Shown here one piece after another: positions 8,433 to 59,888 of a stretch of DNA of 64,000 nucleotides. The number at the start of each line of letters is the position of its first letter. The stretch's first letter is position 1. The notes below the pieces were generated by a model, which did no database searches, was not told the origin of the DNA, and saw only the letters and a program-made list of their open reading frames with translations. The position numbers and the translations under genes are program-made. This DNA comes from Candidatus Poribacteria bacterium. Lineage in GTDB: Bacteria; Poribacteria; WGA-4E; WGA-3G. Location of the stretch: NCBI GenBank assembly GCA_022821725.1, contig JAJEDB010000147.1, positions 1-64,000 on the forward strand, given 5' to 3'.

Positions 8433-8556
8433 TTCCCACCGTATTACCTTCCTCGGTTTTGAACAAAACTGTCCATAAATTGAACACTCAAGGCACTCTG
8501 TCAGGTAAGAGTGCGAGAAAACTCCCTTTAAACCCGATTTTTCACCTGAATTGTCT

Positions 8557-8573
8557 TTGGCATGAAAATTGCT
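8557..8573 (+). promoter_or_regulatory. sigma-54 (RpoN) type promoter
   Basis: TTTGGCATGAAAATTGCTC carries GG at 8559-8560 and GC at 8571-8572, separated by exactly 10 nt, the invariant -24/-12 spacing. It also fits the wider consensus TGGCAYR-N4-TTGCW. Transcription would start near 8584, giving a leader of about 130 nt before the lipoprotein ATG at 8716. No RpoN activator gene is in the window. Confidence 0.6.
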
Positions 8574-8629
8574 CCTATATTGCCAAACGCTGCATAAGCT
8601 TGGGAGAGCCTTCCTCCTTGGAAATACAC

Positions 8630-8676
8630 GGAGCGATGCAATAGGCTTTCCTATATCTCAATTGCTGCATCGCTCC
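8630..8676 (+). promoter_or_regulatory. structured 5' leader hairpin
   Basis: Between the sigma-54-like promoter and the lipoprotein gene is a perfect 11-bp inverted repeat, GGAGCGATGCA (8630-8640) with TGCATCGCTCC (8666-8676). It encloses a second perfect 5-bp hairpin, ATAGG/CCTAT (8641-8654), directly stacked on the 5' arm. The rest of the 322-nt gap (8394-8715) holds the terminator hairpin, this promoter and the leader, and no gene. A regulatory RNA element is inferred from pairing alone. Confidence 0.45.
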
Positions 8677-8715
8677 TTCTCTCAATCCGAAACACCGTGT
8701 GTAAGGAGAAAAATC

Positions 8716-9108
8716 ATGAACAGATGGAGATGTTTACTCTTTATATTTGCTTGTTTGTCACAGATGGGGTGTGCCGCGCTGCTAACCGAGCAGGTGTATG
8801 TCCTCATTGATCGCGATGTAGAAGAAAAGGCGACTTTCCACGGTGCCATTTATTCGCTGCCAGAAAGCGCGAACGTGCGAAAAATTGTGCTGCTTGGCTC
8901 TGGAAAAATTCGAAACATTGAAATTCATGTGCGTGACAAGAGAAACCGATGGAAACCCGCCAAGAAAGTCCCAGGCGGAATCCAGTTTCCTTATGAAATT
9001 CCACTTATTGCTAAGACAGACGCTATCAAAATTATAAAACACGCAATGACTGGCGCCGGTCGCATTGAGACGATCCAATTTTACACGGTTTCGGATAAAG
9101 GAGATTAA
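8716..9108 (+). CDS. small putative lipoprotein of unknown function
   Basis: 130 residues, not recognised. The N-terminus is a hydrophobic signal peptide ending SQMGC (Cys19), which is an imperfect lipobox (Met at -2, Gln at -3). The mature part is short, mixed alpha/beta and basic (RDKRNRWKPAKKVPGG), with no catalytic motif I can identify. The start is ATG 8716, preceded by AAGGAG; the frame is open further upstream but has no better start. It is the first gene after the sigma-54-like promoter, and the LamG gene starts 2 nt after its stop codon, so the two are surely co-transcribed. Confidence 0.7.
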   Translation: MNRWRCLLFIFACLSQMGCAALLTEQVYVLIDRDVEEKATFHGAIYSLPESANVRKIVLLGSGKIRNIEIHVRDKRNRWKPAKKVPGGIQFPYEIPLIAKTDAIKIIKHAMTGAGRIETIQFYTVSDKGD

Positions 9109-9110
9109 AA

Positions 9111-9902
9111 ATGATATACCGACACATCTTCACATCTCTCTTTTTAATAACATTAATTCCACTGATGGCTACAGCATTACCGCCGCGTTCACCCGCAGGC
9201 GGCGGTATGTTGAGATTGGATGAAACGCACGCTTTTGTCGCAACCACCAACGCTTGGTTTCCCGATGAACAGTTTGAAGGATTGACCGCTGAAGCATGGA
9301 TTTACTTTGGAGAAGCACCCGCGCCTGGTAGTTTCTGGTCAATCATTGGTCAGGAAGGACGATTCAATCTGGTTATTCACGGCACTAATGCTTCATTGGG
9401 CGCATGGGGATATGCCGAGGGAGCAGCGGGGTCATTGACGATTGGAGGCTTCGATTTACCTGTAAAGCAATGGGTACACGTCACAGCGATTTACGACGCC
9501 TCCGCAGGGATGGGACTCAACGGTGAGGGCGGCAATTGGTGCTGCCCGAGAGGACACCTCATCAAATCAAATAAGTCACTTCGTATTGGTGGCATTATCT
9601 TCCAAGATCCAGAGCGGAGTCGTTTTGTCGGGGATAATGTGAAATTGCGTGGGTATATCGATGAAGTGCGAATTTCCAGTGTCGTGCGGTATGTTAGACC
9701 GGAGTGGAAGGTCCCTAAACAGAGATTCAAGGTTGACAAACATACCATTTCACTGTGGCATTTCGATGAGGCACCCGGAGCAAACCGGTTCAAAGATACG
9801 TCTGGGAACGGTCATGACCTTTGGAGAAGCGGTGTTTTGGCAGTCACAGCACAAGGAAAACTCACAACTACATGGGGCGCAATGAAACAGACGTCCCCAT
9901 AG
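9111..9902 (+). CDS. secreted LamG/concanavalin-like protein with WG-K tail
   Basis: 263 residues. A signal peptide (about 1-22) is followed by one LamG-like jelly-roll domain, seen in LTAEAWIYFGE, WSIIGQEGRFNLVI, KQWVHVTAIYD and the terminal GYIDEVRISSVVRY and SLWHFDEAPG strands typical of LamGL/DUF1080-like lectin folds. A Cys pair (NWCCPRGH) is in a surface loop. The chain ends GKLTTTWGAMKQTSP, matching the WG-K motif. It probably binds glycans or surface partners, inferred from fold. It starts 2 nt after the lipoprotein gene, with AAGGAG inside that gene's end. Confidence 0.8.
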   Translation: MIYRHIFTSLFLITLIPLMATALPPRSPAGGGMLRLDETHAFVATTNAWFPDEQFEGLTAEAWIYFGEAPAPGSFWSIIGQEGRFNLVIHGTNASLGAWGYAEGAAGSLTIGGFDLPVKQWVHVTAIYDASAGMGLNGEGGNWCCPRGHLIKSNKSLRIGGIIFQDPERSRFVGDNVKLRGYIDEVRISSVVRYVRPEWKVPKQRFKVDKHTISLWHFDEAPGANRFKDTSGNGHDLWRSGVLAVTAQGKLTTTWGAMKQTSP

Positions 9903-10010
9903 ATTGCGATCCCTCGGATATTGAGACAGGTTTCTCTCTGAGGAGTAATGAATTGCACGACGAACCGCTACGCTGAAAATCCAACCGTGACAATTAATGG
10001 AGACATTCTG

Positions 10011-12200
10011 ATGATCCGACACTTCAGCATACTCTTACTAACGATTTTATCTATTTCGGTAAGTCCGCTCAATGCCGCAGAACCACTACTGACCATCGGC
10101 AAGCCGTATCTGGATGACATCGCCTATACACCCGATGGCCGTTTTTTGGCAACGTTGTCCATTTCATATTGGGTTGAATTGTTAGATGCGGAGACCTTCG
10201 CTCCGGTGCATCGCATCGACACGGTTGAGGGAGAACATCTCCGGTTTTCACCAGATAGTTCGCAACTGGCAATTTTCGGAGATAGAGCAAATATTCAACT
10301 CTGGGACGTTGCCCCTCCCCGACTGCGGGCTACGATTCCCGTGAAAACGGTGCACGCCACATTTTCATCCGACGGCACGCATCTCGCCTACGCCGTTGGT
10401 GATACTGTCTACCTATGGCATCTCAGAGAAAAGCGAGTAGTTATGGAATTGACCAATGGAGTGCCGATCACGGCAATCGAGTTCCATCCAAATCTCCCGA
10501 TTCTTATCAGTGGTCATCAAGAAGGTCCTGTGACATTCTGGGATGTGGACACCGGGCAGATTCAACGGCGATTCCCTACGGTTTTGCGACATCCGAAAAA
10601 ACTCCGGTTCAGTCCTAATGGCGCATTTCTCGGTGTTCTATTGGAACACACAAATGTTTATCTCTTTGAAACCGCCACAGGTGCCTTACGGGGATCTTCC
10701 CATTCTGCTCTCGATTTCGGTTTCTCACCGGATAGCACCTACTTTTTAGTCGGCACAGAGGAGGCAAGGCTCCAGCGGCTCCACATCCCGACGGGGTGGT
10801 GGGATAGTCGGTCCGTCGTCGATCGACATGGACCAACTGGAATGGGGCGGGTTAAACGCCTCACTTTTCACCCCGATGGCGACCGATTTGCAAGCCAGAT
10901 CGATGCCTACCGGATTAGCATCTGGGACGTTAAGATGCTGTCGCGCCTAAAAACACTTTCCGGCTGGATGCAAACTTCCACGCGGGCGGCTTATCTACCG
11001 AAGATAAATCGCTTGGTGACGGGTTTCGGCACTAACATACTCCATTTCTGGGACACCCGCACCGGCGATCTGTTGAAAACGGTTGAGTTTCACTGGAGGG
11101 TTTATCAAGTTGTCCCGAGTCCAGACGGACGGTCGGTTGCCCTTGATGTTGAGGCAACAAATCAGATCTGGGACGCGGCGTTAATGGAGCCGCGCCACGT
11201 CTTTCAAATTCGGGGCTATTTAGGGACACAGGCTGTGAATTTTTCGCCTTCCGGGAAGTACCTCGCCTCAAATACCTACCGCGGCACGTTTATCTGGGAG
11301 GTGGAAACCGGTAGGCAAGTGAATCTTATTGACACCGGCTGGTCAGATTTCTCACTCTTGCTGTTTACACCTGATGAGCGGCAGATCGTCCTGATTCCAC
11401 CTAACGATGAAGACATCCAGCCCGCAGGCGATTTCATCGGGTTTTGGGACATTCGGACAGGAGAGATGATTCGCACAGTTGATTCAATCGGTCCGCTCTT
11501 GCTCCGGCAAAACAATTCCCTGCAAATGCGTGATACCCAAGATGCCTTAGAGATTTTTGATATGGTGAGCGACAAGCGGATCAGCCAGATTCCGAAACCC
11601 ATACCGTTTCAACTGATACGCCACTTTTCCGACATTCGATTCCATCCCACTGGTCGCGTGGTTGCCGTTCGGTGGCCCCTGCAGACAACACCTGATAAAC
11701 AACGATTTTATGATACCCAAACAGGACAGCTCTTAGCGGTTATACCGGGGGCAGATTTACGGTTTGCAGGGAAAGGTGAATTTCTGCTCCTCCACAACGA
11801 AAATAGCGGTCAATTGGAAATTTACAGAACCCGGGATATAGTGAACGTTCCGGAATCGGTCGCTGTTGAGCCGCAGGCGCGACAGCTGACACAATGGGGA
11901 GGTGTCAAACGGAACGCGCTGCTCCAAAACTTTCCCAATCCCTTCAATCCAGAAACTTGGATTCCGTTCCGACTCTCAACTGAAAGCTATGTTACGATCC
12001 ACATCCATAATTCTGCAGGTCAGTTGGTGCGTCGGTTGTCCCCAGGGACAATGCCTGCGGGTGACTATTCTTCACAGGCGCAAGCAATCTATTGGGACGG
12101 ACGCAACCAGATCGGTGAACCCGTGAGCAGTGGGGTCTATCTCTACACGATTCATGCTGGCGACTTTTCCGCAACCCGCAAAATGTTGATTCGGAAATGA
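10011..12200 (+). CDS. WD40-like propeller protein with type IX-like C-terminal sorting domain
   Basis: 729 residues. The signal peptide is MIRHFSILLLTILSISVSP with cleavage near NAA (22-24). Residues 30-610 are WD40-like repeats (xxFSPDGxxLAxxxxxxxIxLWD), enough for one or two propellers. A linker with the WG-K motif (W629) leads into residues 636-729: LLQNFPNPFNPETWIPF, a GQLVRRL strand, AGDYSSQAQAIYWDGRNQ, SSGVYLYTIHAGDFSATRKM. That is the FlgD-Ig/Por_Secre_tail fold which directs type IX secretion in Bacteroidota and relatives. The start is ATG 10011 (GGAG upstream), 63 nt inside a longer frame, because it begins the signal peptide. Surface attachment or secretion is inferred from the domain; no secretion machinery is in the window. 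Confidence 0.85.
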   Translation: MIRHFSILLLTILSISVSPLNAAEPLLTIGKPYLDDIAYTPDGRFLATLSISYWVELLDAETFAPVHRIDTVEGEHLRFSPDSSQLAIFGDRANIQLWDVAPPRLRATIPVKTVHATFSSDGTHLAYAVGDTVYLWHLREKRVVMELTNGVPITAIEFHPNLPILISGHQEGPVTFWDVDTGQIQRRFPTVLRHPKKLRFSPNGAFLGVLLEHTNVYLFETATGALRGSSHSALDFGFSPDSTYFLVGTEEARLQRLHIPTGWWDSRSVVDRHGPTGMGRVKRLTFHPDGDRFASQIDAYRISIWDVKMLSRLKTLSGWMQTSTRAAYLPKINRLVTGFGTNILHFWDTRTGDLLKTVEFHWRVYQVVPSPDGRSVALDVEATNQIWDAALMEPRHVFQIRGYLGTQAVNFSPSGKYLASNTYRGTFIWEVETGRQVNLIDTGWSDFSLLLFTPDERQIVLIPPNDEDIQPAGDFIGFWDIRTGEMIRTVDSIGPLLLRQNNSLQMRDTQDALEIFDMVSDKRISQIPKPIPFQLIRHFSDIRFHPTGRVVAVRWPLQTTPDKQRFYDTQTGQLLAVIPGADLRFAGKGEFLLLHNENSGQLEIYRTRDIVNVPESVAVEPQARQLTQWGGVKRNALLQNFPNPFNPETWIPFRLSTESYVTIHIHNSAGQLVRRLSPGTMPAGDYSSQAQAIYWDGRNQIGEPVSSGVYLYTIHAGDFSATRKMLIRK

Positions 12201-12367
12201 GACGGTTCAAACCTTTTGACGAATAAGCAAAAATTGCGTTCCAAATAGATGCCCTTCAGCATCACGCCTCTGCACCATTTTGTGCTCTTAGGTCCAAGAT
12301 ATGCCCTATTTTGTGCAGTGCTTTTGGACATTTCGCTAAGAATTTCACCGGTATTGTATTTTTTAGA

Positions 12368-12384
12368 TTGGCACGGAATTTGCC
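12368..12384 (+). promoter_or_regulatory. sigma-54 (RpoN) type promoter
   Basis: TTGGCACGGAATTTGCC has GG at 12370-12371 and GC at 12382-12383 with the exact 10-nt spacing, and matches TGGCACG-N4-TTGC in full. It lies 126 nt upstream of the second propeller gene. The leader holds an imperfect hairpin, AGGAGTATTG (12418-12427) against CAATG...CTCCT (12436-12450), echoing the leader at 8630-8676; both contain ATCGCTCCT. Confidence 0.65.
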
Positions 12385-12494
12385 ATAGTAAAGGCACATA
12401 CTTTGGGTTTTACGCTTAGGAGTATTGAAGTTCAGCAATGTATCGCTCCTGATCACCGATTCATCCTTATCGTCGCACACCTTGGAGGTTTCTC

Positions 12495-14837
12495 ATGAAA
12501 ACGCGCATCATCCTTTCAAAACGAAGCTTACAAGTTTATATTAAAGTCATCAGTGTTATTTGCATCTCCTGCTGTGCTTTTGCGATGGAACCGATCGGCA
12601 CAATTGGGCAACCCTTTCCAGAGCAGCACGCGTTTCTCTCCGATGAAGCGATTGTACGTGTTACCCCAGCACGCATTCAAATTATTGATACGAATACCGG
12701 TGCGGTTATAGATGAATTCGCCGAACGCGAGTATTTCAGCCATGTCGTGTTGAGTCCAGATGCCTCACATTTAGCGATTCTTACACATGCGCATGATGGA
12801 AAGAGTACGACTGTCAGTATCTGGGATGTCAAGGCTCGTGAGCAAGTCAGCGAATGGAAAGTCGAATTTCGCACCTATGATGTCGCGGCATTTAGTCCAA
12901 CGGAGCCGCTGTTCGCAATCTCTTCTGAGGATGGGATTCATCTCTGGGATTGGCAGACGGGTGAGTACCTTGGAAAGATGATAGGCGCACGGCGTCCATT
13001 GAAATCCTGTTATTTCTTCGACGGCGGCAGCAGTTGTGAAGGAGATCCGCGTGATCGCACCGCGATTTTTAGTCCCGATGGTCGCTATTTGATCGTCGCC
13101 GCAATGCGCCCTGACATTGAACGCTGGAATGTTGAAACGCGCCAGTTAGAAGGACACTTTGAAGGACACACCGGAAACTGGGTTGAAAAGGTCGCTATCA
13201 GTCCGGATGGAAGATACATCGCGTCATTCGAGGAAAGATCAACTTCCGTTTACGTGTGGGATGTAGCATCGAGACAGTTGCTCCGGAAAGTGCAAAGCGG
13301 CATTGGAAGGATTTCAGATGTGGTCTTCAGTCCGGACAGTCAACACCTGTATGTTGCGACCGAGACCGCTGACCTGACGTGGATTGATCCCGGTCCCCGG
13401 CAAGGATGGGATGACCAGGTCCGCGTCTGGAATGTCAAATCGGGACAACACATCGACACGTTTGGCAGTGAGTTCCGCGAATTGGAAGAAATAACGCTAT
13501 CACCGAACGGGAAAATTGCGCTCCTTCACTATTGGGATGCCGTCGTGACGTGGGCTATAGAGAAAAAGCGACCCCTGAACGTGTGGACTGATTTCCTCAG
13601 AGATCGGTTCTACGATGTGGTGAAGTTGAGTCCTGATGGAAAAACCGTAGGCTCTACCTCTCGGTATTTTATTAAGACATGGGATGTCGCGTCCCAGCAG
13701 ATGAAACGCATGATTTCTGCAGAAGATGCCACATTTGAAGGGCTCGCAATCTCTCCAGATGGTCGGAAACTCGCTGTCCACAGGGACCGGTGGGTGGAGG
13801 TCCGCAATCTTCAGACCGGTAACATCGAAATCCAATTTCCGCAGCAGATTGGGTGGCTTGAAGAAATTGTCTTCAGTGCTTCTGGAAGGTGGGTTGCGAT
13901 GGTGGGATATTGGGAGCCGCTCTCCATCTTGGATACCCAAAATCCGGAGAAACTCCAGAAACTTGCGTCAGAAAATGGGGCTGTATCCCTACATAATCAT
14001 TACCAGATCGTCTTTAGTGAAAATGACGAGTATTTTGCGGCTTCCGGCAGAACGAAAGACGATCAAGATTGGATTCAATTATGGAAACGCGAGGGCGGCA
14101 CTTTCGGCTTTCAATATGCATGGCAGGTCCCAAAACTTCTCTATAGCCGAATTCCAACGCTCGCCTTTGCCGCTCACACAGACGGTTCAACGGTGTTAGC
14201 AGCATCCAAGGAATCGGAACTTCACATCTGGAGACTCTTGCCAGATGCCCCCGAGCTTCTAACGACCTTGGAGGGATACTATCACCCAGTGCACTTTAGT
14301 CCAGATGGTCATTACCTCTTTGCCCGACGAGACGGTTCCACTCAGATCTGGGACTGGCAGACAGAAACACCCCTTGCGCATCCATCTATCCCAGTATATT
14401 TTGACATCAGTCGTGATGGCTCCGTTCTGCTTTCGGAGTCAGTCAGCGGTCAAATCCGCATCTGGGATGGAAGCGCACTCCTACCTTCGCAACCGGTTGC
14501 CGTTGAGCCGGGCGGTAAACAGATTGTTATACTGGGAGAAGTGAAACGGAATCAACTCCTACAGAACTTTCCCAACCCTTTCAACCCGGAAACCTGGATC
14601 CCGTTCCGACTTGCAAATGAAAGTCACGTCACGATCCACATTTATAACACCGCGGGTCAATTGGTGCGTCGCTTATCCGCAGGGACAATGCCTGCGGGCG
14701 ACTATTCTTCACAGGCGCAAGCCGTCTATTGGGATGGACGTAATCAGACCGGTGAACCCGTGAGCAGCGGCGTCTATCTCTACACGATTCACGCTGGCGA
14801 CTTCTCCGCAACCCGCAAAATGCTCATTCGGAAATAA
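12495..14837 (+). CDS. WD40-like propeller protein with type IX-like C-terminal sorting domain
   Basis: 780 residues, a paralog of the upstream propeller protein. A signal peptide with an extended basic n-region (hydrophobic core about 15-30) precedes many repeats of the form xxxSPDGxxxAxxxxxxxVxVWDV across residues 60-665. The linker carries GKQIVILGEVKRN, in which the usual Trp of the WG motif is Leu. Residues 687-780 are a full sorting domain (LLQNFPNPFNPETWIPF to ATRKMLIRK), nearly identical to the neighbour's. The ATG follows GGAGG by 6 nt. It has its own sigma-54-like promoter. Binding partner unknown. Confidence 0.85.
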   Translation: MKTRIILSKRSLQVYIKVISVICISCCAFAMEPIGTIGQPFPEQHAFLSDEAIVRVTPARIQIIDTNTGAVIDEFAEREYFSHVVLSPDASHLAILTHAHDGKSTTVSIWDVKAREQVSEWKVEFRTYDVAAFSPTEPLFAISSEDGIHLWDWQTGEYLGKMIGARRPLKSCYFFDGGSSCEGDPRDRTAIFSPDGRYLIVAAMRPDIERWNVETRQLEGHFEGHTGNWVEKVAISPDGRYIASFEERSTSVYVWDVASRQLLRKVQSGIGRISDVVFSPDSQHLYVATETADLTWIDPGPRQGWDDQVRVWNVKSGQHIDTFGSEFRELEEITLSPNGKIALLHYWDAVVTWAIEKKRPLNVWTDFLRDRFYDVVKLSPDGKTVGSTSRYFIKTWDVASQQMKRMISAEDATFEGLAISPDGRKLAVHRDRWVEVRNLQTGNIEIQFPQQIGWLEEIVFSASGRWVAMVGYWEPLSILDTQNPEKLQKLASENGAVSLHNHYQIVFSENDEYFAASGRTKDDQDWIQLWKREGGTFGFQYAWQVPKLLYSRIPTLAFAAHTDGSTVLAASKESELHIWRLLPDAPELLTTLEGYYHPVHFSPDGHYLFARRDGSTQIWDWQTETPLAHPSIPVYFDISRDGSVLLSESVSGQIRIWDGSALLPSQPVAVEPGGKQIVILGEVKRNQLLQNFPNPFNPETWIPFRLANESHVTIHIYNTAGQLVRRLSAGTMPAGDYSSQAQAVYWDGRNQTGEPVSSGVYLYTIHAGDFSATRKMLIRK

Positions 14838-14983: not shown

Positions 14984-17900
14984 ATGAACGCGTTAAAACG
15001 AGTAATTCATTCTCTGCTTGTAGTGCCTTGCATCTTGAGTACATCTGTGTTCTATGGGTGTGGTGCCGACCCTCTCGGACCCTACCAACCGCTCTTGCCT
15101 ACTATTGAGAGCGAAGCGAAATTCTCAAGCAGATACCAATTGGAAGAAGAACCGCAGTTCTTTCATGACCTTTATGGGGCAGAAATCGTAGAAGGCAGCG
15201 AACTCAATACATACACCGATCGGAAAGAATTCGATCAGAACGGTAAATTAGTTGTCGGATGGGGCGGTCAACTCGATAGTATGCGCTTCACAGCACAACT
15301 CGACCGGACAATCATCGCTGAAGAAAGTTTCCTCGGTAGACATACCGAGTTTATGATTGGCGATCACCTCCGCATCAAACCCGCGACCCTGTTTCCAAAC
15401 CGATATATTCTATACAAAACGGAGTTCGATGGGCTCCGGTGGGATATCTCTTTTGCGCAGGAACATCATCTTTTTAGCTTCATCCACTCCCGTATTTCTA
15501 ATCCTATTAGAATAACAGACGCTGCAGAGGATGGGGCACTCGGACAGGATCTCGGCCGCCGAAACGGGTGGAACGCAGCGTCAGGGGTCAGGAATATTGA
15601 AAACGCACGACTCGTCGGTTTTCGAGGACAGGGACTCTTCGGCGAAATGTTCCGCGTCGGATTTACTTATGTCAATTTGTATAAAGAACATCCCGAACGC
15701 CTCATAAACGCATTCATGGGGACGGTTGCAAATACACCCCCTGAAACGATATCCGTTGTTTTTCGTGATGATTCGCCTGAGGATAATCACACGAACGCAT
15801 TCACGGATCTTCGTTCTTATGATCCGGACCTACATAGCAATCATAGCCAAGAGGGGGTCGGTGCCGCTTTCAAACGCATGAGAATAACTATCGTTACACA
15901 ATCACTTCACAAATTACCCCCCGCCGCTATAGCGGAAGGCATTGAACCCGAACTTCTCCCCGAAGTGACGCACCACTTCGATGTCTTTGCTGACGAACTC
16001 GTGCCGGTTGATCATAGCGGCGGCACTTCCGAAATCCGAGATTCCGTTGACGGAAAATGGAAGATTGTCACCGGTTTCAATAAAATGAAATATGATCTTA
16101 TGCTGGCGGATCAGAAGATTAACATTGACCCCCGAACAGTTAAATCTGTTGTATTTGATATGGTTGTTGCAGGCGATTACAATATAGCCGTTATCGGCTT
16201 TAGTGAAGCGAATAGAGCCGAGGAAAACCCTGACCTACAGGAGTGGATTAAAACGACAGATGGCCGCATTCAGATGCCGTATCGCGACATAATTCAGGCA
16301 CCGGGGAATTACGGTCAATCCCCGGATTACATCAAAGACAGAAAAAACCTTGTAGACAATCCGACGCAATGGAAGGGGGAAGGGAGACCTCGGAAAGTCC
16401 GATACCGCTACGGTGCTGCACGTGCTGCGACGCTCTATGGACTTGACCTTGAAGGGACTGTCAGTAACGTTTTCATCAGGGCACACTACTCTATTAATGG
16501 TAAATACAAACAGTATCCCACTATCCCGAAAGATAAAGTCGGCTTTAGTCGAACCAAAACCGTGCTTCAGCTGCCCGATGGTGAAGAAGAAACAGGTGTC
16601 ACGATTGATCTCGGCAGCCAACTCCCAGTAGATGCAAACGGGGTCCCGACCTATTCGGAAACCGAGGGCGAACGTTTTGAGGCTTTTTTAGGGGGTGACG
16701 GAACAGATGAAGACGGCAACGGAAAACTCGGTAGAGAAACCGCCTGGTTCGTCCAACTTAAGTCTCGCTTTGACAAACTCCACTTAGAAGCCGTCTTGTA
16801 TCATATTGACCCAGGCTACACAACCAACTATCTGAATTTCGGGGCACATCCGAATCGGGGTCAAATTTATACGCTTGAACGCGGTAGGCGAGATAGACCC
16901 TTGCAAGAACGAATCCCGGCAGAACAAACTCCATGGGACACCGCCAATTATACATTGATTGAGGATGACGATGATGGCGATGACTGGCCCGATGGCATTG
17001 CCGACTTTGATGGGGTGATCCCACGCGCGGATGACCGAGACCAGAACGGGGTCTTAGACTTCCAAGAAGATTTTCTTATTTTTGAAGCCGACCCACCTGT
17101 ATTTACCAATGGTATCGATCTGAATAATAACGGCATTGTTGATCGAATTGAGGATGACCTTGAACCGGAATACGAATACGGCATAGACCGTCAAGGGTAT
17201 CACCTTAAAGCAAAATACGATCTGCTCGATAACTTTGTTGTTCAAGTGGGTTGGTTAAATGAAACCGAAGTTTCAAGCCGTCGGAAGAATAACGCCAAAT
17301 ACATACATATCACCTATAAACGCAGCGTCCCCGATTTTGGGAGTTTTCACTTCCAAAATTGGTTCGTCCGGGTCCATGATGATATTCCGGATTACGCAAT
17401 CGCCTTGCCTGTTGGAGAATTGGAGCCGATTCACATTAAGGACGAGCTCGATTTTTACAACGCGCGGGTGAATACAACAACGTTCCAATGCCTCTATACC
17501 GCGGTGCGGAACTTGACGCTTGAAGCCAAATTTCTGGTTCACATGCAAAAACAATTTGAACAGGAGAAAGAGAAGGCACTTTTCACGGATATTGAATACG
17601 ACCCGATATCAAAGAACTTTGAATCCGATGAACGCGTTGACTTTATGGTCCCAATTGAACAGGTCCGAATTGGCGACAGGGGACGTGTATACCCGTTCTA
17701 TCCCGATCATGGACTTAACGCACTCGACCCGACGGACACCGGTTTGATCTATGACGACACGAATTGGAAAAAACGCCGTTACCCTGAACGGAACATCCGT
17801 AACCAACTCACGATTCTGAAAGCGAAATACGAGATACCATTTGCGAACCTCCCTTATGTCCACAAAAGTGTTGAAGATTTAACGCTAACACCGATGGTGA

Positions 17901-18340
17901 AATACGTCTGGGACCGCGCTTTTGACCGAAGTGCCGAAGAAATTCCAAAGACACTCAACCCATCGCTGTTCCTTCCTACCGACGATGAACCCATTGAATA
18001 TTTGCGATTCAATCGTCGAAGTCGGGAGGATATTCTTGGGGTGCGTCTCGATTATCAGTTTACACCAAGATTAAATATCATCGGAGGCTTCCAGTATCGG
18101 AAGTTTTCCAACCGAGATAAAAACTTCAAGAACTACCTACAAACTTTCTCAGATGACACTGACGTTCCGAACTTATACCGTCCTGATCTGCGAACGCGTA
18201 TATTTGAAATCCAAACTATTAACAGAGGCAGTTGGCTCGGTTTCTATATCGTCATTCTCGCAGGGCACCGTAGAACGACACATCTGTTTGAACACACGAC
18301 CAGTAATACAACCTTCGTTCGAGCGATGATGGGTTTCTAA
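14984..18340 (+). CDS. large exported, probably barrel-forming protein of unknown function
   Basis: 1118 residues, not recognised. A signal peptide is followed by Cys26 (VFYGCG), a weak lipobox. The body alternates amphipathic strands with charged turns and ends in an aromatic-rich strand finishing in Phe (FVRAMMGF), a hallmark of outer-membrane beta-barrels. Segments such as LRIKPATLFPNRYILYKTEF and PRLNIIGGFQYRKFS look like paired barrel strands. Residues about 660-730 are an acidic insertion with DxDxDG-like loops (DDDDGDDWPDG, DRDQNGVLDF, DLNNNGIVDR) resembling calcium-binding EF-hand or dockerin loops. A GGGAGGA sits upstream of the ATG. It lies 146 nt after the sorting-domain gene. Function is unknown; an outer-membrane location is inference. 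Confidence 0.7.
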   Translation: MNALKRVIHSLLVVPCILSTSVFYGCGADPLGPYQPLLPTIESEAKFSSRYQLEEEPQFFHDLYGAEIVEGSELNTYTDRKEFDQNGKLVVGWGGQLDSMRFTAQLDRTIIAEESFLGRHTEFMIGDHLRIKPATLFPNRYILYKTEFDGLRWDISFAQEHHLFSFIHSRISNPIRITDAAEDGALGQDLGRRNGWNAASGVRNIENARLVGFRGQGLFGEMFRVGFTYVNLYKEHPERLINAFMGTVANTPPETISVVFRDDSPEDNHTNAFTDLRSYDPDLHSNHSQEGVGAAFKRMRITIVTQSLHKLPPAAIAEGIEPELLPEVTHHFDVFADELVPVDHSGGTSEIRDSVDGKWKIVTGFNKMKYDLMLADQKINIDPRTVKSVVFDMVVAGDYNIAVIGFSEANRAEENPDLQEWIKTTDGRIQMPYRDIIQAPGNYGQSPDYIKDRKNLVDNPTQWKGEGRPRKVRYRYGAARAATLYGLDLEGTVSNVFIRAHYSINGKYKQYPTIPKDKVGFSRTKTVLQLPDGEEETGVTIDLGSQLPVDANGVPTYSETEGERFEAFLGGDGTDEDGNGKLGRETAWFVQLKSRFDKLHLEAVLYHIDPGYTTNYLNFGAHPNRGQIYTLERGRRDRPLQERIPAEQTPWDTANYTLIEDDDDGDDWPDGIADFDGVIPRADDRDQNGVLDFQEDFLIFEADPPVFTNGIDLNNNGIVDRIEDDLEPEYEYGIDRQGYHLKAKYDLLDNFVVQVGWLNETEVSSRRKNNAKYIHITYKRSVPDFGSFHFQNWFVRVHDDIPDYAIALPVGELEPIHIKDELDFYNARVNTTTFQCLYTAVRNLTLEAKFLVHMQKQFEQEKEKALFTDIEYDPISKNFESDERVDFMVPIEQVRIGDRGRVYPFYPDHGLNALDPTDTGLIYDDTNWKKRRYPERNIRNQLTILKAKYEIPFANLPYVHKSVEDLTLTPMVKYVWDRAFDRSAEEIPKTLNPSLFLPTDDEPIEYLRFNRRSREDILGVRLDYQFTPRLNIIGGFQYRKFSNRDKNFKNYLQTFSDDTDVPNLYRPDLRTRIFEIQTINRGSWLGFYIVILAGHRRTTHLFEHTTSNTTFVRAMMGF

Positions 18341-49889: not shown

Positions 49890-50837
49890 CTAATTTTCTC
49901 GGATTGTAGCCAACCCTGTCTGCCATTCCTCGCCTTTCTTGCCTGCGTAGATCATTGCGTAGGTGTCTCCAACTTCAAATATCTGACCCGTCAACACGCC
50001 ATCACAATCAAAGGCATTTGGATCGTCCGACGGTGTGAATACCGGGTTATAAGGGTTCGGCTCGAAGGTCCGGAAATCGCGGGTCCGCACGTGTCCGATC
50101 CGCCAGACTTCGCCATCGTATCCACCATAGAGAATATGGAAGTACCGCGAATCCTTGAACAATTCGGTTTCACGAACGGCTCGACTATCCCACGCCTGTC
50201 CACTCCCTGTAAAAACGGGATTGTTAGGATTTTTTCTGACCGACGCTGGATCGTTCGTCGGTGCGGTCGCATGACACATCGTCAATCCCTCCCCGAAGGA
50301 CCGGGTCGCCTTCCCCGTATAAACGATGTGGATCGTGTTGTCTTCTATCGCAACCGAAGGGTGGGTTGAGCCGTGCCGCTCGTGATCGGTATCCGCAGGA
50401 ATGACTGGCATATTTCGGACGCGTCGCCACTCGCCAAGGTCGCCATCGCTCACAAGGAGTCCCGTCTGTTCCGGTGTCGTTTGTCCTTTGCCTCGATAAT
50501 ACATGTAGAACTTGCCATCAGCAGGATTTAGGAACGGGAAAGGGTACTCAACGGCTGCATCATCGAACCCCTCTGTTGAAGGCTCCAGAATAGGATTCCG
50601 CGCATCCTGTGTGATGTTGGTGAGATCATTCACCGGAGCCGTCGCGTGCATTATCAACCATCGGACCCCAAGGTCGCGCTTACACCAGATGTAATGGACG
50701 GTTTCATCAACGATAATAGCGTGGGTCGCCGCTGCCCAAAGCGGTGGCGGCAGAGCAATGATCGGATTGCCCGTCCCAATTCGCTTGAAACTGGCGAATA
50801 CTTCAAATGGAATAGGATCTTTTCGTGGATTTGTCAT
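49890..50837 (-). CDS. glycosidase-like five-bladed beta-propeller (GH43/GH130 type)
   Basis: 315 residues, no signal peptide. The blades repeat an HATAPxNDxxxxxxxxxNPIL pattern (ATAPVNDLTNITQDARNPIL, ATAPTNDPASVRKNPNNPVF), with FYMYYRGKG, IHIVYTGKA and FHILYGGYD strands. This is the five-bladed propeller of GH43, GH117 and GH130 glycoside hydrolases and phosphorylases. Acidic candidates for catalysis include D and E in FDDAAVEYPF and WDSRAVRETELF, but I cannot assign the triad. Its ATG overlaps the TGA of the gene before it (ATGA at 50837-50834), so translation is coupled. A glycosidase inside a MoxR cluster is unusual. Confidence 0.75.
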   Translation of the reverse strand: MTNPRKDPIPFEVFASFKRIGTGNPIIALPPPLWAAATHAIIVDETVHYIWCKRDLGVRWLIMHATAPVNDLTNITQDARNPILEPSTEGFDDAAVEYPFPFLNPADGKFYMYYRGKGQTTPEQTGLLVSDGDLGEWRRVRNMPVIPADTDHERHGSTHPSVAIEDNTIHIVYTGKATRSFGEGLTMCHATAPTNDPASVRKNPNNPVFTGSGQAWDSRAVRETELFKDSRYFHILYGGYDGEVWRIGHVRTRDFRTFEPNPYNPVFTPSDDPNAFDCDGVLTGQIFEVGDTYAMIYAGKKGEEWQTGLATIREN

Positions 50838-53800
50838 TGTTGGGTTCTCCCTTCTAAAGCATCGAAATAAGCGTCCAAACCTTGACGGAATTCTTCCGGT
50901 AACACGCGCCCCGTTTTCCCGGTTGCCTGTCTCGGTGAACGATTTTCAATAGAGGCTTTGCCACTGTCATCACCAACCCCCAGGAGCATCAAAGCTGACG
51001 CCGTGGCTGGGGGTGCGTTTCTTATCATGGGGGCATTTGGCATACGCCCGGTTTCGAGTAGGATTTCAATTGTCTCCGTTATTGCGGCAATCGCTCTGGG
51101 ACCGGTGTCCGGTTCCGCGAGGATATCTTCGACCTCCTCCATAACTTCCGCAGCACGTCCTACTTTCGCGAGTTGCCCTTGGATGAAGCGTTCTTGTGCG
51201 TTGGGTAGGAGGCTAATTTGTGCCTCTACCTCGCGGGTATCCTCGGTGAGTGTGATTTGCGTCTCATACAGTGCGATGCTGCGATCGCGGTATTCATCAG
51301 CAGTAAGTGCCGCCTTCGCCTGCTCAAGTTCGCGTGTCTCTTCCCGCAATTGGATCTCGCGATTGATAATGCGCATCACCTCCACGACGATTTCTGGGGG
51401 TAGGTTCGGCAGCTCAACCAGTCCCATCTCCGGTGGAGGATTCCCATCAGGTAGCGGATCTACCAGCTGCTCTGCCCACCGATCTAACGTATCTGCCCAG
51501 AATTCCGCCTCAATCGTTGCGTCCCCGATAAAATTGTCCTGAATCGCTTCCGCCATGTCCAGCATCTGGTCGGATACAATAACGTCCTGCATCTCCGACA
51601 GCACACGCGAGAAACCTCCGGACGGTCGTCGATCAGCATAAGCAGCCATGTCCTGTAAGAGTGTAGAGGCTACCTTAGACTCAGAGATCTCTTTTCCTGC
51701 CAAACGCTCTCGGTCGGATGCATCTTCCACCGCATCACTCACATCTTGCCCGAAACCGTCCAGATTGTTCAGGTCCACTGCGATGTCGATCTGCCGTCGC
51801 GATGCCGCTTTTAAACGTTTCACGAATGTGCTATTTTCAAAACCCGTGAGCAATTTGTTCATTTTTTCTGCCAACGCAGCAAAGGCATCCAGCAATTCTT
51901 GCTGTTCCTTGACGGCTTCCAAGACGAGTTCCGCTGTCTGAGGTGCAGGGGGTTCTTCCTCTTCATCGTTTTTTCTACCGCTCCCTTTGAGGGTTGTCAT
52001 GGGGATTCCCAAACCACCGACGATCTGCGGTGCCTGTCCTGCCTCTTCTTCCTCATTGAAACCGGATTCAACATCAACGACACGCGGTGTTGGGTTGGCG
52101 GGTACATAACCCGGCTTACCTTCTGGCTGTTTGCTTCGGTTCACGATAACACCCGCGCCAGGGGTATTCGGATCTTCTGGGATATCGTCTAACCCTTCAG
52201 GAGGTGTCTTGCGCTCGGGTCCATATTTCTCCACGTTCTCCAAATTATTAGGTTCACCCTTGGAAGAGGATGGAGGTCTCTCCGCTGTCAGAGACGAGCT
52301 TTCTTGCTGATTGCTGTTCGCTGTTTGTTGATTACGAATGGGTTGACGACTACTCTGACCTGGTGCCTCAGCAGCGCGTGCAAGTAGATCAGCGACAGAA
52401 GGCATTCTCTGTCCAGCGATCTCCTCTAACTTTTTGAGTATTTCTGCCCATGACTCCAGCTGATTCGGATCGAATTCCTCGTTTTTTGTGGCTTCTTGCA
52501 CCAACTCAGTGCCAAGTTGGATGAGACGCTCAAGCCTCGCCGCATTGGCACGCTCCGCAGCGGCTTGATTTTGAAGTTTCCTGCGCTGCGCTGGATCGTC
52601 AAGTGCTTCGGGCGGTAGGTCACGCAGTTCGCGATTGGTTTCGTGCAACTGCAATTCTTTGTCGTGGACCTCCTGTGCTGCACCCATCCAGAGTTCCATC
52701 TGCCCGACCAACCACTTGAAATGTTCCGCTGGGGTCAACACATGTATGACGAGGTCGGGTGAACGGACGCGCTCGCGACCGGGAAGATAATCCTCTGCAA
52801 AAGCACGTAGACGTAGGCTCTGTGGACGCACATTTTCCCGCAAGGCAGAAAATGTAGCCGGAACAGTCATAACATCTGTGGTTGGTGTGCCGGATGCTAC
52901 CGTTTTCTCACCACTCGTAGGTTCGGGATTGTGAATCGGATTGCCAATGCCTTCCCATTCCAACCCTACCCGTTTCACACCGAAGTCATCCCCCGCCTGA
53001 ACCTCAAAGGTGAGGACTTCACTCGAAAGCACAACACGATTGTTATTGAGTTTATTGAAACTAACCCTCGGAGATTCATCTTCTCGCGCCTCTAACTGTA
53101 TCACTTGCGGTTCACGTGCAGCGAGACCAAAGCGATCCCGCCACGCCAACTGGAGTAAGGTATCGGGGTTAAAAACCCCTCCTACGACACTGATGGGCTC
53201 GGTTGTCACACGCTCACCATCCACACGTTGTGGGCGCCCGTTTAAAGTCGCTTCGGCGAGTGCCCGTGTTGCTGTGGCTTCTAAGATTGCGGTACTCCCT
53301 TTCAACAAACTGAGGGTCCCACCGCGGACATCCTCCACGAGTGGCTCGCTGCGTTGCAAATAGTCTGGCAGTTCTACCTTAGCAGTAAGCTGCGTCAGTG
53401 CAGGACGCAATTTGGGTTCGATGGGGATGGTGCGTCGGGCATCGCCGACTCGAAGTTTGAGGTGTCCATCCCTTGTTTGAGGTGGTAGTTGAAATTGGTA
53501 AATTGCCTCGTCTCGCGTCGCAACCACTGGGGTTTGGTTGGCGTAACGGGCTTCTCCTGACTCGGGTTTCCACGGAGAATCTTCTTTTAAGCGTGCTTCC
53601 ACATCAAAGGGTTCGGCGTAAGGGACAACACGCAATCCTGATTCACCCTCCAATTGGGCAAAGGTATAACGCGGCACATCACGCCACGGGGTCAGCCAGC
53701 GGGCAAAGGTGTTCCAACTCGTTGCGGGTATTGCTACGGTTCCGATCACTACCAATGCTAATGGCAGGGCTGCTGCATAAGCCCAATGCCGGTGCCGCGG

Positions 53801-54271
53801 CTTGGGAACCGCATCCGCCAAATTATGTCTTGCGACCTCGGCATCAACCTGACGCATGGCTGCCTCAACCAGCGTAGGACTCGACAATTGATCCTCTCTG
53901 TTCTGTGCTAACTCTACGATGCCCAGCACATGATCCCCAAAACGTGGGAACTTTTGCTGCAACAACCGAGCGACACCCTCTAATTGTCGATGCTTCCAAA
54001 CCCAGTTGTAGTATTTCATGGGTAAGAGAAAGACCATTCCGACCATACCAACCCCTAAGATGAGCACCCGTAGAAGTGTAGGTGTATCAAAGACTCGGTC
54101 TAAGCAGAAAACGATGATATAAGAGACGAGGATACCAAAGATTGCTGCCAACACCCCTTCAGCAAGTTTGATCGTCCATACCCGTTTTTGGTACCGTTCC
54201 AGTGCCGCTTTCATACGCGGCGGTATTTTAATTTTTCCTTGCGGTTCGGTCAGATGCGTCTGGATTCTCAT
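50834..54271 (-). CDS. DUF4175-like large membrane-anchored protein
   Basis: 1145 residues. Two transmembrane helices near the N-terminus (about 32-55 and 62-80) and a third near 160-180 precede a mainly extracytoplasmic chain. About 250-550 is a beta-rich domain (YAEPFDVEARL, LTAKVELPDYLQR, DDFGVKRVGLEW) and 560-1130 is helical and coiled-coil with many Glu, Gln and Arg residues. This fits DUF4175-type proteins found beside MoxR, BatA and DUF58. Low-complexity Gln/Ser residues near 650 are encoded by heptamer repeats. The start is ATG 54271 with GGAGG; the longer frame to 54382 overlaps the next gene. Probably part of the envelope complex made by this cluster. Confidence 0.7.
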   Translation of the reverse strand: MRIQTHLTEPQGKIKIPPRMKAALERYQKRVWTIKLAEGVLAAIFGILVSYIIVFCLDRVFDTPTLLRVLILGVGMVGMVFLLPMKYYNWVWKHRQLEGVARLLQQKFPRFGDHVLGIVELAQNREDQLSSPTLVEAAMRQVDAEVARHNLADAVPKPRHRHWAYAAALPLALVVIGTVAIPATSWNTFARWLTPWRDVPRYTFAQLEGESGLRVVPYAEPFDVEARLKEDSPWKPESGEARYANQTPVVATRDEAIYQFQLPPQTRDGHLKLRVGDARRTIPIEPKLRPALTQLTAKVELPDYLQRSEPLVEDVRGGTLSLLKGSTAILEATATRALAEATLNGRPQRVDGERVTTEPISVVGGVFNPDTLLQLAWRDRFGLAAREPQVIQLEAREDESPRVSFNKLNNNRVVLSSEVLTFEVQAGDDFGVKRVGLEWEGIGNPIHNPEPTSGEKTVASGTPTTDVMTVPATFSALRENVRPQSLRLRAFAEDYLPGRERVRSPDLVIHVLTPAEHFKWLVGQMELWMGAAQEVHDKELQLHETNRELRDLPPEALDDPAQRRKLQNQAAAERANAARLERLIQLGTELVQEATKNEEFDPNQLESWAEILKKLEEIAGQRMPSVADLLARAAEAPGQSSRQPIRNQQTANSNQQESSSLTAERPPSSSKGEPNNLENVEKYGPERKTPPEGLDDIPEDPNTPGAGVIVNRSKQPEGKPGYVPANPTPRVVDVESGFNEEEEAGQAPQIVGGLGIPMTTLKGSGRKNDEEEEPPAPQTAELVLEAVKEQQELLDAFAALAEKMNKLLTGFENSTFVKRLKAASRRQIDIAVDLNNLDGFGQDVSDAVEDASDRERLAGKEISESKVASTLLQDMAAYADRRPSGGFSRVLSEMQDVIVSDQMLDMAEAIQDNFIGDATIEAEFWADTLDRWAEQLVDPLPDGNPPPEMGLVELPNLPPEIVVEVMRIINREIQLREETRELEQAKAALTADEYRDRSIALYETQITLTEDTREVEAQISLLPNAQERFIQGQLAKVGRAAEVMEEVEDILAEPDTGPRAIAAITETIEILLETGRMPNAPMIRNAPPATASALMLLGVGDDSGKASIENRSPRQATGKTGRVLPEEFRQGLDAYFDALEGRTQQ
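52304..52331. repeat. heptamer short tandem repeats inside a coding region
   Basis: TTGCTGA, TTGCTGT, TCGCTGT, TTGTTGA: four consecutive 7-mers, read on the minus strand as a Gln/Asn/Ser-rich stretch of the DUF4175-like protein. Confidence 0.6.
54224..54251 (-). repeat. CCGCAAGG leader element, copy 3 (in coding sequence)
   Basis: On the minus strand: GACCGAACCGCAAGGAAAAA then TTAAAATA. Here the element is translated as TEPQGKIKI, residues 8-16 of the DUF4175-like protein. Confidence 0.55.
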
Positions 54272-54297
54272 GTTTTCCTCCGTGGATCCGCTCTCCA

Positions 54298-56538
54298 CTA
54301 TACCGCTCCCGACATTTTTCTCGCAACCCAGAACACCCCGAGCAGTAGGATAAGAAGTCCTGCCCAAAGTGGGTGTGCCCAAATCCGTGTGCGGTGCACC
54401 GTTGGTTCAGGTTCCGGTAAGGCGGCGAGATCATCCAACAGACTTCTCGCCTCAGAAACCGACACTAACCTACCGTCTGTAATTTTGGCGATTTCGTCTA
54501 AAACCTCAAAACGCGCCAAACGCCCTTGTTGTTCCCGATTTAAACCTTGAACTGACAGATCGGTTTGGACCGAAGCCCCAGTTTCAATGCTACTCGCAAC
54601 GAGTTGATAGTTTCCAGATTCTTTCGGGGTAAACGAACCTGCGAACAATCCTATTGCATCACCTTTACCCGGTTGCAGATGTATTGTTTGTGTTTTACCT
54701 GACGGCGAAATCACCTGGACAACAACCGACCCCCTATCCACCGGCGTCCCCAACGGATCGTTCACGTTGGCATTTAACATCACAACATCATCGACGTGCG
54801 GTCGGTCGGGTGAAAAAAACAAACGCATTGATTCGCCTTGTGCCATCTGCCGACGATACGCCATCCACCGAGCGACTTGGCTCCAGAAACGGTAGTGATA
54901 CTTATCCTCAACCCCTTGCCGCCACCGCCATGCGCTATCTGTTCCCATAAACAATACTTTACCCGCACCGTAGGTTTTGCTCACGATGAGCGGCACGCGT
55001 CCAGAAGTCGTCGCGACCTCATTGTGCACGGCTAAAGTCTCTGTCCCTGCCTTGGCGCGTTTGACCGCAGCGTACCAGTAGAAACCCGGCAATGTGCGCC
55101 ATACTTGACGGTTGAGTTCCTCGGTTTCTCCGAGGCGAGTTAATAAGCTCCGCTGTCCCAACTGCGTGAGTGCGAAATACCCCTGTGTTGCCGCCCCAAC
55201 ACCATACGGGGTCGCAGCGTCCAAAACCACGGGATAGAGATCCGCAAGCGGACCGGACATCAACGATTCATGCATCCCGGTCCGTCCCGGCATAAAAACG
55301 AGTCCTGAGGCCTGTGCACTGACAAGCTGCCGTAGGTCCCGTGCCTGTTCAATTGTTAACTGTTTCTCTTTGACACCGACATCACCAAGGAACACCACGT
55401 CGTAGCGGCTCAGTTCGTTGGTCGTAGGAAAGTTTTTGATGTAACTACGCCCGCCGCCGACCTTCGATAGTTTCGGATGAAAAAGTAGGCAGGTCAATTC
55501 GACCCCGGGATCCCGCTCCAAGGCATTGCGCAGATAACGGTACTCCCACCGGGGATAGGATTCGACGACCAGGACCTTCAATTGTTCCTTGCGCACTGAT
55601 ATCGGTACGGAAATCTCATTGTTTTCTGGGATTAATTCCTGTGTGTCTCTCGGAATACGCATTGTTAGCAGATAGTCCCCAACTGCTGGCGGTGTCCAGA
55701 CCATGTTCTCTTGCGCTTGGTTCATCGCGGGGACACGGATAAGTTTGCTAACAGTTGATTTATTGTTAATATTGTCTCGCAGGTCTCCTTTATAGACTTG
55801 CGTCAAGGTAACATTCACGTCTCTGTCCTGACCCAAGGTGCTGCGAACGACAAAGGGGATACGAAGTTGCTTATTGACAACCGCAAAAGTCGGGGCATCC
55901 ATACTTACTAACTCAAGATCAGGTAACGGCACTTTACTACCCACCCCAACAGCAAAAACCGGAATTCCGCGCATCCGAAACCGCGTCGCCGCTTCGACAG
56001 GTGAATTACCGATATTCCAATCACCGTCCGACAACAGCACGACCCCGCGAAGATTGGCATGCGTGTCTAAAACTTGCGTCAGTCCGGCGTTCAAATCCGT
56101 TGCTTCCTCCGCCGGATCTAACTGTGAAGAGAAGGGTTCAAATACTACGTTGAGGTCACTGGCATCCGAAGGTTTCCAAATCTCCTCAGACATCAAGGAT
56201 TGAATCGTTTCCGCTCGACTTTTCGGATCCCTTTGTTCAACGTCTTGTGAGTCTATTACGTCCCGTGTTTTCATGCTATTAGATGTGTCCCAAAGCACTG
56301 CGAGTGTAGAACGCCGATCGGGTAGTTGTGTTTGCAACCATTCGGGCTGATTCAGGGTTACAACGACCATGCAAATCAACACAAGGCGTAGAAATTCAAG
56401 CACTGCGGTCTTTTTGCTATAACCGCTGCGACACCATGCCAGCCAGCATAATATGCCAGCCACAATTATGACAGCCAAACTCAACCCTAAGAAGGTACCA
56501 CTTGAGAAAAATTCGAGGTTTCCCTGCTGTTCCTGCAT
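54298..56538 (-). CDS. VWA-domain / glutamine amidotransferase-like membrane protein
   Basis: 746 residues. N-terminal helices (about 14-36 and 44-62) precede a von Willebrand A domain: VLWDTSNSMKTRD carries the DxSxS metal site, and LLSDGDWNIG and VFAVGVGS are the later strands. A middle region (about 320-570) has the Rossmann-like strands of class I glutamine-amidotransferase-like domains (LKVLVVESYPRWEYRYL, YDVVFLGDVG, VLFMGTDSAWRWR) without an obvious catalytic Cys. A beta domain and a C-terminal helix (about 720-742) close it. This is the usual partner of BatA-type proteins in MoxR clusters. The ATG has no clear Shine-Dalgarno. Confidence 0.8.
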   Translation of the reverse strand: MQEQQGNLEFFSSGTFLGLSLAVIIVAGILCWLAWCRSGYSKKTAVLEFLRLVLICMVVVTLNQPEWLQTQLPDRRSTLAVLWDTSNSMKTRDVIDSQDVEQRDPKSRAETIQSLMSEEIWKPSDASDLNVVFEPFSSQLDPAEEATDLNAGLTQVLDTHANLRGVVLLSDGDWNIGNSPVEAATRFRMRGIPVFAVGVGSKVPLPDLELVSMDAPTFAVVNKQLRIPFVVRSTLGQDRDVNVTLTQVYKGDLRDNINNKSTVSKLIRVPAMNQAQENMVWTPPAVGDYLLTMRIPRDTQELIPENNEISVPISVRKEQLKVLVVESYPRWEYRYLRNALERDPGVELTCLLFHPKLSKVGGGRSYIKNFPTTNELSRYDVVFLGDVGVKEKQLTIEQARDLRQLVSAQASGLVFMPGRTGMHESLMSGPLADLYPVVLDAATPYGVGAATQGYFALTQLGQRSLLTRLGETEELNRQVWRTLPGFYWYAAVKRAKAGTETLAVHNEVATTSGRVPLIVSKTYGAGKVLFMGTDSAWRWRQGVEDKYHYRFWSQVARWMAYRRQMAQGESMRLFFSPDRPHVDDVVMLNANVNDPLGTPVDRGSVVVQVISPSGKTQTIHLQPGKGDAIGLFAGSFTPKESGNYQLVASSIETGASVQTDLSVQGLNREQQGRLARFEVLDEIAKITDGRLVSVSEARSLLDDLAALPEPEPTVHRTRIWAHPLWAGLLILLLGVFWVARKMSGAV

Positions 56539-56634
56539 TTTTTAATTTTTTAATTATTCGCAAGGCGTTAAATGGAGTGTTCTGTTTATCAACGGTTTTC
56601 CCTTAAATCCGCCTGCGTGTTTTTGCGAATCAAT

Positions 56635-56659
56635 GCTGAATGCGCGTGTGGCATTCAGC
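56635..56659. repeat. hairpin in cluster spacer
   Basis: GCTGAATGC (56635-56643), loop of 7, GCATTCAGC (56651-56659), inside the 278-nt gap between BatA-like and VWA genes. A possible transcript-processing or attenuation site. Confidence 0.45.
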
Positions 56660-56668
56660 GGGGTATTT

Positions 56669-56753
56669 CTGCGTATTGTTGCAGGCTACTGTCTTGGATA
56701 AACTAAAACCGGTAGCCCGTAATGTAATGAAGGGGTTTTTGCTTGGGCGTTTC
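56669..56753. repeat. mosaic intergenic repeat, copy 2
   Basis: Contains the 20-nt exact match to 46029-46048 and, at 56732-56753, the inverted match to 45996-46017. Modules are therefore rearranged relative to each other. Confidence 0.65.
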
Positions 56754-56796
56754 CTCATAGATATACGGAAAGGGACTTTATCCATCAAAACGCCCT

Positions 56797-56822
56797 GACC
56801 GAACCGCAAGGTAAACTTAAAA
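56797..56822 (+). repeat. CCGCAAGG leader element, copy 4
   Basis: GACCGAACCGCAAGGTAAAC then TTAAAA on the plus strand, overlapping the stop codon of the leftward BatA-like gene, opposite in orientation to the copy at that gene's start. Confidence 0.55.
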
Positions 56823-58883: not shown

Positions 58884-58903
58884 ATTTTAATTATTCCTTG
58901 CGG
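58884..58903 (-). repeat. CCGCAAGG leader element, copy 5
   Basis: On the minus strand: CCGCAAGGAATAATTAAAAT directly before the ATG of the BatA-like gene, with AAGGA as the ribosome binding site. Confidence 0.6.
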
Positions 58904-58928
58904 AGGAACGGCGACTGACAACTAATCC

Positions 58929-59831: not shown

Positions 59832-59888
59832 TTTTTACTTTTTTATCCTTGGGCATTACTGCGGAATGTAATGGCGCGGTGCCCGGGT

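Follow-up and report, generated by a model that had tools for sequence, protein, structure and literature searches.

Two sigma-54-like sequences in front of genes for β-propeller proteins with an export tail raise the question of whether they are functional promoters and what they control. They are located in a 64,000-nt stretch of a Candidatus Poribacteria genome (contig JAJEDB010000147.1, positions 1 to 64,000; in the following called the window), and the original prediction was RpoN control of the export-tail proteins as a class, exerted through a single activator encoded elsewhere. The genome is a 4.97-Mb draft of 151 contigs and 91% completeness, labelled G000 among the compared genomes; further genomes and individual loci are given as G and L numbers. 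From our analysis, the two sites are very probably functional sigma-54 promoters of two different regulons, each defined by a putative upstream activating sequence (UAS) and its enhancer-binding protein (EBP): UAS-B with EBP-B for promoter 1 and UAS-A with EBP-A for promoter 2.

8558-8572, + strand: sigma-54 promoter 1, TGGCATGAAAATTGC, with the -24 GG at 8559-8560 and the -12 GC at 8571-8572
12369-12383, + strand: sigma-54 promoter 2, TGGCACGGAATTTGC

As originally described, both sites lie on the + strand and show the GG-N10-GC spacing. Promoter 2 matches TGGCACG-N4-TTGC exactly and promoter 1 with one mismatch. The wider sigma-54 consensus is TGGCAYG-N4-TTGCW, from which promoter 2 deviates by a C instead of W after TTGC. 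The predicted transcription starts are near 8584 for promoter 1 and near 12395 for promoter 2.

We scored the window with a position weight matrix (PWM) trained on 15 intergenic sites from elsewhere in this genome, two of which (L006 and L015) have near-identical flanks and are thus not independent. Promoter 2 (24.4 bits) and promoter 1 (23.7 bits) ranked first and second, the third-best site reached 13.9 bits, and these two were the only strong sites in the window; leave-one-out scores of the training sites ranged from 14.4 to 29.0. A first-order Markov null yielded 5 scores of at least 20 in 200 simulated windows altogether, and 0 of 300 column-permuted PWMs reached 23.7 bits in the real window. 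The strict pattern TGGCAYG-N4-TTGC has 25 matches in the whole genome, compared to 5 for the reversed control; sorted by listings of open reading frames (ORFs), 8 of these matches are coding and 17 intergenic, 15 of the latter outside the window. Looser patterns are weakly or not enriched, with 23 matches at up to two mismatches in the window (18.0 expected) and 475 genome-wide matches to a wider pattern at up to one mismatch (354 in the control). Such sequences are frequent by chance, and the two sites could in principle be chance or remnant sequences without function; we consider this extremely unlikely in view of the PWM score gap, the null models and the conserved elements and helical phasing across the genus described below.

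The genome encodes RpoN (PF04552, E-value 6.6e-58), on whose presence the original prediction depended, and 12 full-length EBP genes (PF00158). Promoter 1 is kept at orthologous positions in relatives, and G026 has the 19-mer of promoter 2 unchanged at its orthologous position (L115). Both sites are, almost with certainty, genuine sigma-54 promoters of this sponge-associated Poribacteria bacterium.

Upstream of promoter 2 we identified UAS-A, two 16-bp copies of TGCMCYATTTTGTGCW that lie 31 bp apart and form imperfect palindromes.

12271-12286, + strand: UAS-A copy 1, TGCACCATTTTGTGCT
12302-12317, + strand: UAS-A copy 2, TGCCCTATTTTGTGCA, 31 bp past copy 1

The core of copy 2 ends 52 bp upstream of the -24 TGG. 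Pairs of this type were found at six of the 18 own-genome promoters examined (L009, L010, L011, L013, L020, which is promoter 2, and L055, where one copy is degenerate). Expressed as the pattern TTTNGTGC-N21-24-TTTNGTGC, the pair has seven matches in the genome and none in the reversed control; six of the seven, among them the new L082, are followed by a sigma-54 site, and the seventh (L079) lies inside a coding sequence. We surveyed 60 genomes including this one, 36 of the same genus and 24 from outside it. Within the genus, 35 of 36 genomes contain the pair (212 matches vs 10 in the reversed control), compared to 8 matches vs 4 in the other 24. Among 90 distinct pairs, a subset of the listed places, 75 have a sigma-54 site of at least 15 bits within 220 bp, against 0 of 90 in the control.

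The distances between UAS-A and these 75 promoters fall into steps of 30–32 bp (5 cases), 39–41 bp (11) and 49–54 bp (57), with further values of 81 and 201 bp. They follow the helical turn (Rayleigh test at a 10.5-bp period, p ~1e-8, 34 family-distance values), counting one value per family and distance and leaving out 201 bp. A scan of named genomes gave a similar picture: Poribacteria make up 61 of the 80 matches listed, and a sigma-54 site follows UAS-A in 57 of these 61 but in 0 of the 18 other listed matches with enough sequence. The listed matches also include a further distance class of 64–65 bp and one case each of 84, 103 and 201 bp. This set shares genomes with the 90 pairs, so that only its non-poribacterial control is independent. 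In the model we prefer, EBP-A would bind the tandem 16-bp sites, three helical turns apart, on one fixed face of the DNA. From there, about five turns ahead of the -24 element, it would activate the RpoN polymerase at short range upon its signal.

The enhancer consensus of NtrC is TGCACY-N5-RGTGCA. UAS-A resembles it in its TGCAC/GTGCA half-sites and tandem arrangement and differs from it (TGCAC-N7-GTGCA) in the narrower spacing of its half-sites, 6 instead of 7 bases, and in the degeneracy of the left one.

Promoter 1 is preceded by a different sequence, for which we suggest the term UAS-B.

8460-8485, + strand: UAS-B, TGAACAAAACTGTCCATAAATTGAAC, with alternating TGAACA/TGTYCA/TGRACA half-sites

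This putative EBP-binding element lies 72 bp upstream of the -24 TGG, and most of the aligned promoter-1 orthologs contain TGAACAAAACTGTYCANAAATTGRAC upstream. Allowing one mismatch, the UAS-B pattern gave 51 matches in 35 of 38 genus genomes and none in the reversed control; within G000, 8460-8485 is the only one. A sigma-54 site follows 70–74 bp past UAS-B in 27 of 35 instances and in 0 of 35 controls. The targets are the 130-aa lipoprotein family found behind promoter 1, LamG proteins and two proteins with TonB-like N-termini by eye (L313, L328).

Because the two promoters carry unrelated upstream elements, at least two activators are expected, with EBP-B serving promoter 1 through UAS-B. 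Control by RpoN and by activators encoded elsewhere thus stands from the original prediction, supported by rpoN, the 12 EBP genes and the conserved upstream elements, and its single activator probably does not. One EBP could still serve both promoters if UAS-B were a UAS-A variant or an accessory site, bound by a repressor or a DNA-bending protein, and if a distant UAS-A acted on promoter 1. This would fit a UAS-A pair about 300 bp upstream of the promoter-1 ortholog in G026 and the leaders similar to that of promoter 1 (described below) that follow paralogous promoters having just one UAS-A-like site (L183, L185, L190, L194). However, no UAS-A-like match was found near promoter 1 in G000, the distance of UAS-B is fixed at 70–74 bp, and UAS-B is present in G024, where strict UAS-A pairs are missing. 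We therefore regard a common EBP as improbable.

Several observations weigh against two regulons defined in this way. Most loci are orthologs across a single genus, so that the counts share ancestry. No site of at least 15 bits follows 15 of the 90 UAS-A pairs, which include plausible weak sites (G051, G055) and one G026 pair, and no sigma-54 site follows 8 of the 35 UAS-B matches, mostly of another sequence type. A strict UAS-A pair was not found in G024 (95% complete), though the core EBPs are present there; DUF4159 genes are matched there at best by short pieces, and the pair may have been lost in assembly. Finally, none of the six EBPs conserved in all three genus genomes compared fits uniquely. 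These six (L027, L028, L030, L032, L034 and L037) have reciprocal best matches of at least 78% identity in G005, G021 and G024.

An assignment of EBPs to the elements by presence and absence failed. L037 appeared to fit, yet just 12 EBPs of G041 entered the comparison, and absence in G041 and G044 is uninformative because the DUF4159 orthologs of these two genomes, which belong to another family, also show UAS-A-like pairs, whose sites are weak (11.5 and 13.6 bits). By the same token, UAS-A may be older than the genus. We take L027 to be a candidate purely as a guess, from its NtrC-like RNTL recognition helix; a histidine-kinase-like ORF lies upstream of it. Two small genes downstream of L027 (own genome, C59) resemble EutN/CcmL microcompartment vertex proteins by eye. 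Scanning the EBP loci for autoregulation revealed no UAS-B, and UAS-A only as single matches with two mismatches. Separately, several short EBP genes have a strong sigma-54 site nearby (L035 and L036, and L207, L217, L238, L242 and L244 of G005), which at L035 precedes a small Cys-containing protein (L024); local EBP-peptide modules are possible.

The genes behind UAS-A promoters show what the EBP-A regulon would comprise. Representatives encode DUF4159 proteins, MoxR (AAA_3; bpMoxR 46.1 bits), vWA, WD40 and PD40 proteins, Ycf48-like BNR and SGL-like propellers, LamG, TPR and PhyH proteins. We envisage that each genome has several operons encoding envelope proteins, in which DUF4159, vWA and MoxR proteins, β-propeller lipoproteins, LamG, PhyH and TPR proteins would be produced under common control. 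The 15 intergenic sites outside the window precede, among others, groES-groEL, hsp20 (with two sites in tandem), DUF4159 and lipoprotein genes, and one gene each for PhyH and a prepilin-peptidase-like protein, with groES/groEL, hsp20 and the prepilin-peptidase-like gene named by reading of the sequence.

The genes behind promoters 1 and 2 are arranged as the original prediction had it, according to ORFs and domains: a lipoprotein, a LamG protein and a propeller follow the first site, and a second propeller follows the other.

8716-9108, + strand: ORF for a putative lipoprotein of 130 aa, first gene behind promoter 1
9111-9902, + strand: LamG (Laminin_G_3) protein, second gene (PF13385, E-value 2.1e-9)
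9948-12200, + strand: WD40-type propeller with a C-terminal FlgD-like, type IX secretion system (T9SS)-like tail, third gene (PF13860, 35.6 bits)
12495-14837, + strand: second WD40 protein with tail, behind promoter 2 (PF13860)
14984-18340, + strand: 1118-aa protein, no family assigned, whose ortholog in G033 lies directly behind promoter 2

The lipoprotein has no match in Pfam or NCBIfam. The first propeller scores 21.8 bits against PF18962, under the cut-off of 27, and the second 32.2 bits against TIGR04183 (cut-off 23); a T9SS type A sorting tail is a candidate assignment for both.

Two adjacent tail operons with such promoters could indicate that RpoN controls the export-tail proteins as a class, all the more as the WD40-and-tail subfamily recurs in sigma-54 units: twice in G000, twice in G026, and in G018 behind a UAS-B promoter, where the target L202 resembles the window gene at 12495 by eye. 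We searched the genome for the tail and found 42 places, 34 of them strong (E-value <1e-25) and two of these in the window. For the 32 strong tail genes outside the window and six of the eight weaker places, stretches with as much as 4 kb of upstream sequence were then scanned for sigma-54 sites; three of the 32 stretches start right at the end of a contig, and a further two offer fewer than 300 upstream bases. None of the 32 genes has an adjacent site. The best site, a distant exception of 21.9 bits (L055), precedes a lipoprotein gene that is separated from the tail gene by two further genes, and no other site in these stretches exceeded 15.2 bits; at L065, where the tail-motif script had missed the tail ORF, the stretch contained no sigma-54 site.

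The same independence appears from the side of the promoters. None of the 15 intergenic sites outside the window lies beside a tail gene, and the claimed absence of further sites near tail-less genes holds for the window and fails for the genome. The first ORF behind the 75 UAS-A promoters was called in 66 cases and complete in 50, and only 1 of these 50 carries a tail, the ortholog of the window gene; the window gene itself, cut off in its own locus, would be the second. Both promoters and two tail genes are present in G026. In G033, a lipoprotein and LamG follow promoter 1, and promoter 2 with its UAS-A pair is followed immediately by the ortholog of the 1118-aa gene, without an intervening tail gene. 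Because G033 has both promoters without either tail gene, the promoters are not tied to the tail. These counts refute tail-class control as a general rule, and we consider it very unlikely. Under the two-regulon model, the tailed propellers would instead have entered, or been retained in, transcription units that sigma-54 already controlled.

The transcript from promoter 1 would start with a structured leader, which may also control translation.

8586-8680, + strand: conserved structured leader RNA of 95 nt, between promoter 1 and the first gene

It contains a helix (8630-8640/8666-8676) and a possible pseudoknot (8602-8610/8644-8652), and by eye its CTCCTT (8614-8619) could pair with the ribosome site AAGGAG (8703-8708). 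In an alignment of 33 sequences picked by hand, with truncated and unrelated ones excluded before pairs were counted, 95.1% of cells were paired under the two-helix model, compared to 93.7 in shuffles (0 of 500 as high) and at most 50.6 for slid partners. Changes on both sides affected 13 cells (4.3 in shuffles, none as high) and 4 pairs, a number reached by 34 of 500 shuffles. The covariance model scored the leader at 110.6 bits and detected no second copy in the further loci of this genome that were searched; no Rfam family matched at gathering score, hence no known riboswitch or cis RNA. RNAalifold predicted no structure from 45 raw leaders, which aligned poorly; with the 33 trimmed ones it returned the helix and a GGGA/TCCT hairpin competing with the pseudoknot. 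Since the sequences are closely related, support for a conserved structure is moderate.

A more far-reaching version combines a dedicated sigma-54 programme of Poribacteria, in which one EBP at a tandem UAS, placed at distances of whole helical turns from the promoter, would coordinate MoxR/vWA/DUF4159 complexes with exported β-propeller and LamG proteins, with a promoter-leader cassette under the second EBP. The CCUCC of this leader would pair with an upstream GGAG or mask the ribosome site. We regard this combination as tentative and rather doubtful; if true, a new pseudoknotted leader switch would place surface proteins under two-level control.

Some neighbouring observations concern other genes. 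On the - strand of the window, 49890-60902 contains one run of MoxR-like, DUF58, BatA-like and unknown large genes. The PWM and UAS-A scans found no sigma-54 site in front of its MoxR gene (59889-60902); by eye, its orthologs at L108, L129, L135 and L160 lie behind UAS-A promoters, that of L129 reaching only 11.1 bits. Palindromes like TGCCAAAATGGCA / TGCCAATTTGGCA lie upstream of the sigma-54 promoters of groESL (L003) and hsp20 (L022/L023), and a sigma-54 heat-shock regulon in this genome is possible. A third upstream element with repeats around CAATTTTTGCG occurs at L006, L014, L015 and L021 (near the EBP loci L038 and L033), and some of the genes behind it adjoin short EBPs without a receiver domain.

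Sigma-54 regulons of Clostridiales have reportedly also been rebuilt by comparative genomics. In Desulfovibrio vulgaris, the largest share of sigma-54 promoters is described as lying within 100 nt of the nearest EBP site (PMC4641369). The poribacterial systems share with those regulons the -24/-12 promoter, EBP genes and a conserved UAS; as far as that account goes, they differ in phylum, UAS sequences, the envelope β-propeller, LamG, DUF4159 and MoxR targets, and the stepped UAS-promoter distance over many promoters. The Por/T9SS tail (TIGR04183) has been described on poribacterial WD40 proteins in a study that reports no structural Por genes and whose main text leaves regulation undiscussed, with 0 occurrences of "sigma" (PMC3909097); WD40 proteins of the window appear to carry that tail as well. 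MoxR-vWA-β-propeller ternary systems are known from PMC7159879, with "Poribacteria" 0 times in the main text. Compared with those systems as presented there, MoxR, vWA and β-propeller genes are here targets of UAS-A and are joined by a common UAS rather than one gene cluster, so that their membership is a candidate only. Literature searches, judged from their listings, turned up no paper that relevantly joins Poribacteria with sigma-54, RpoN or a regulon.

Two testable regulons with exact elements are thus at hand for a candidate phylum represented here by metagenome-assembled genomes only. Common control would tie the poorly understood surface β-propeller and LamG proteins to the MoxR and DUF4159 genes. 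The stepped UAS-promoter distances would constitute a natural experiment, in which EBPs bound to the same face of the DNA reach the sigma-54 polymerase at short range.

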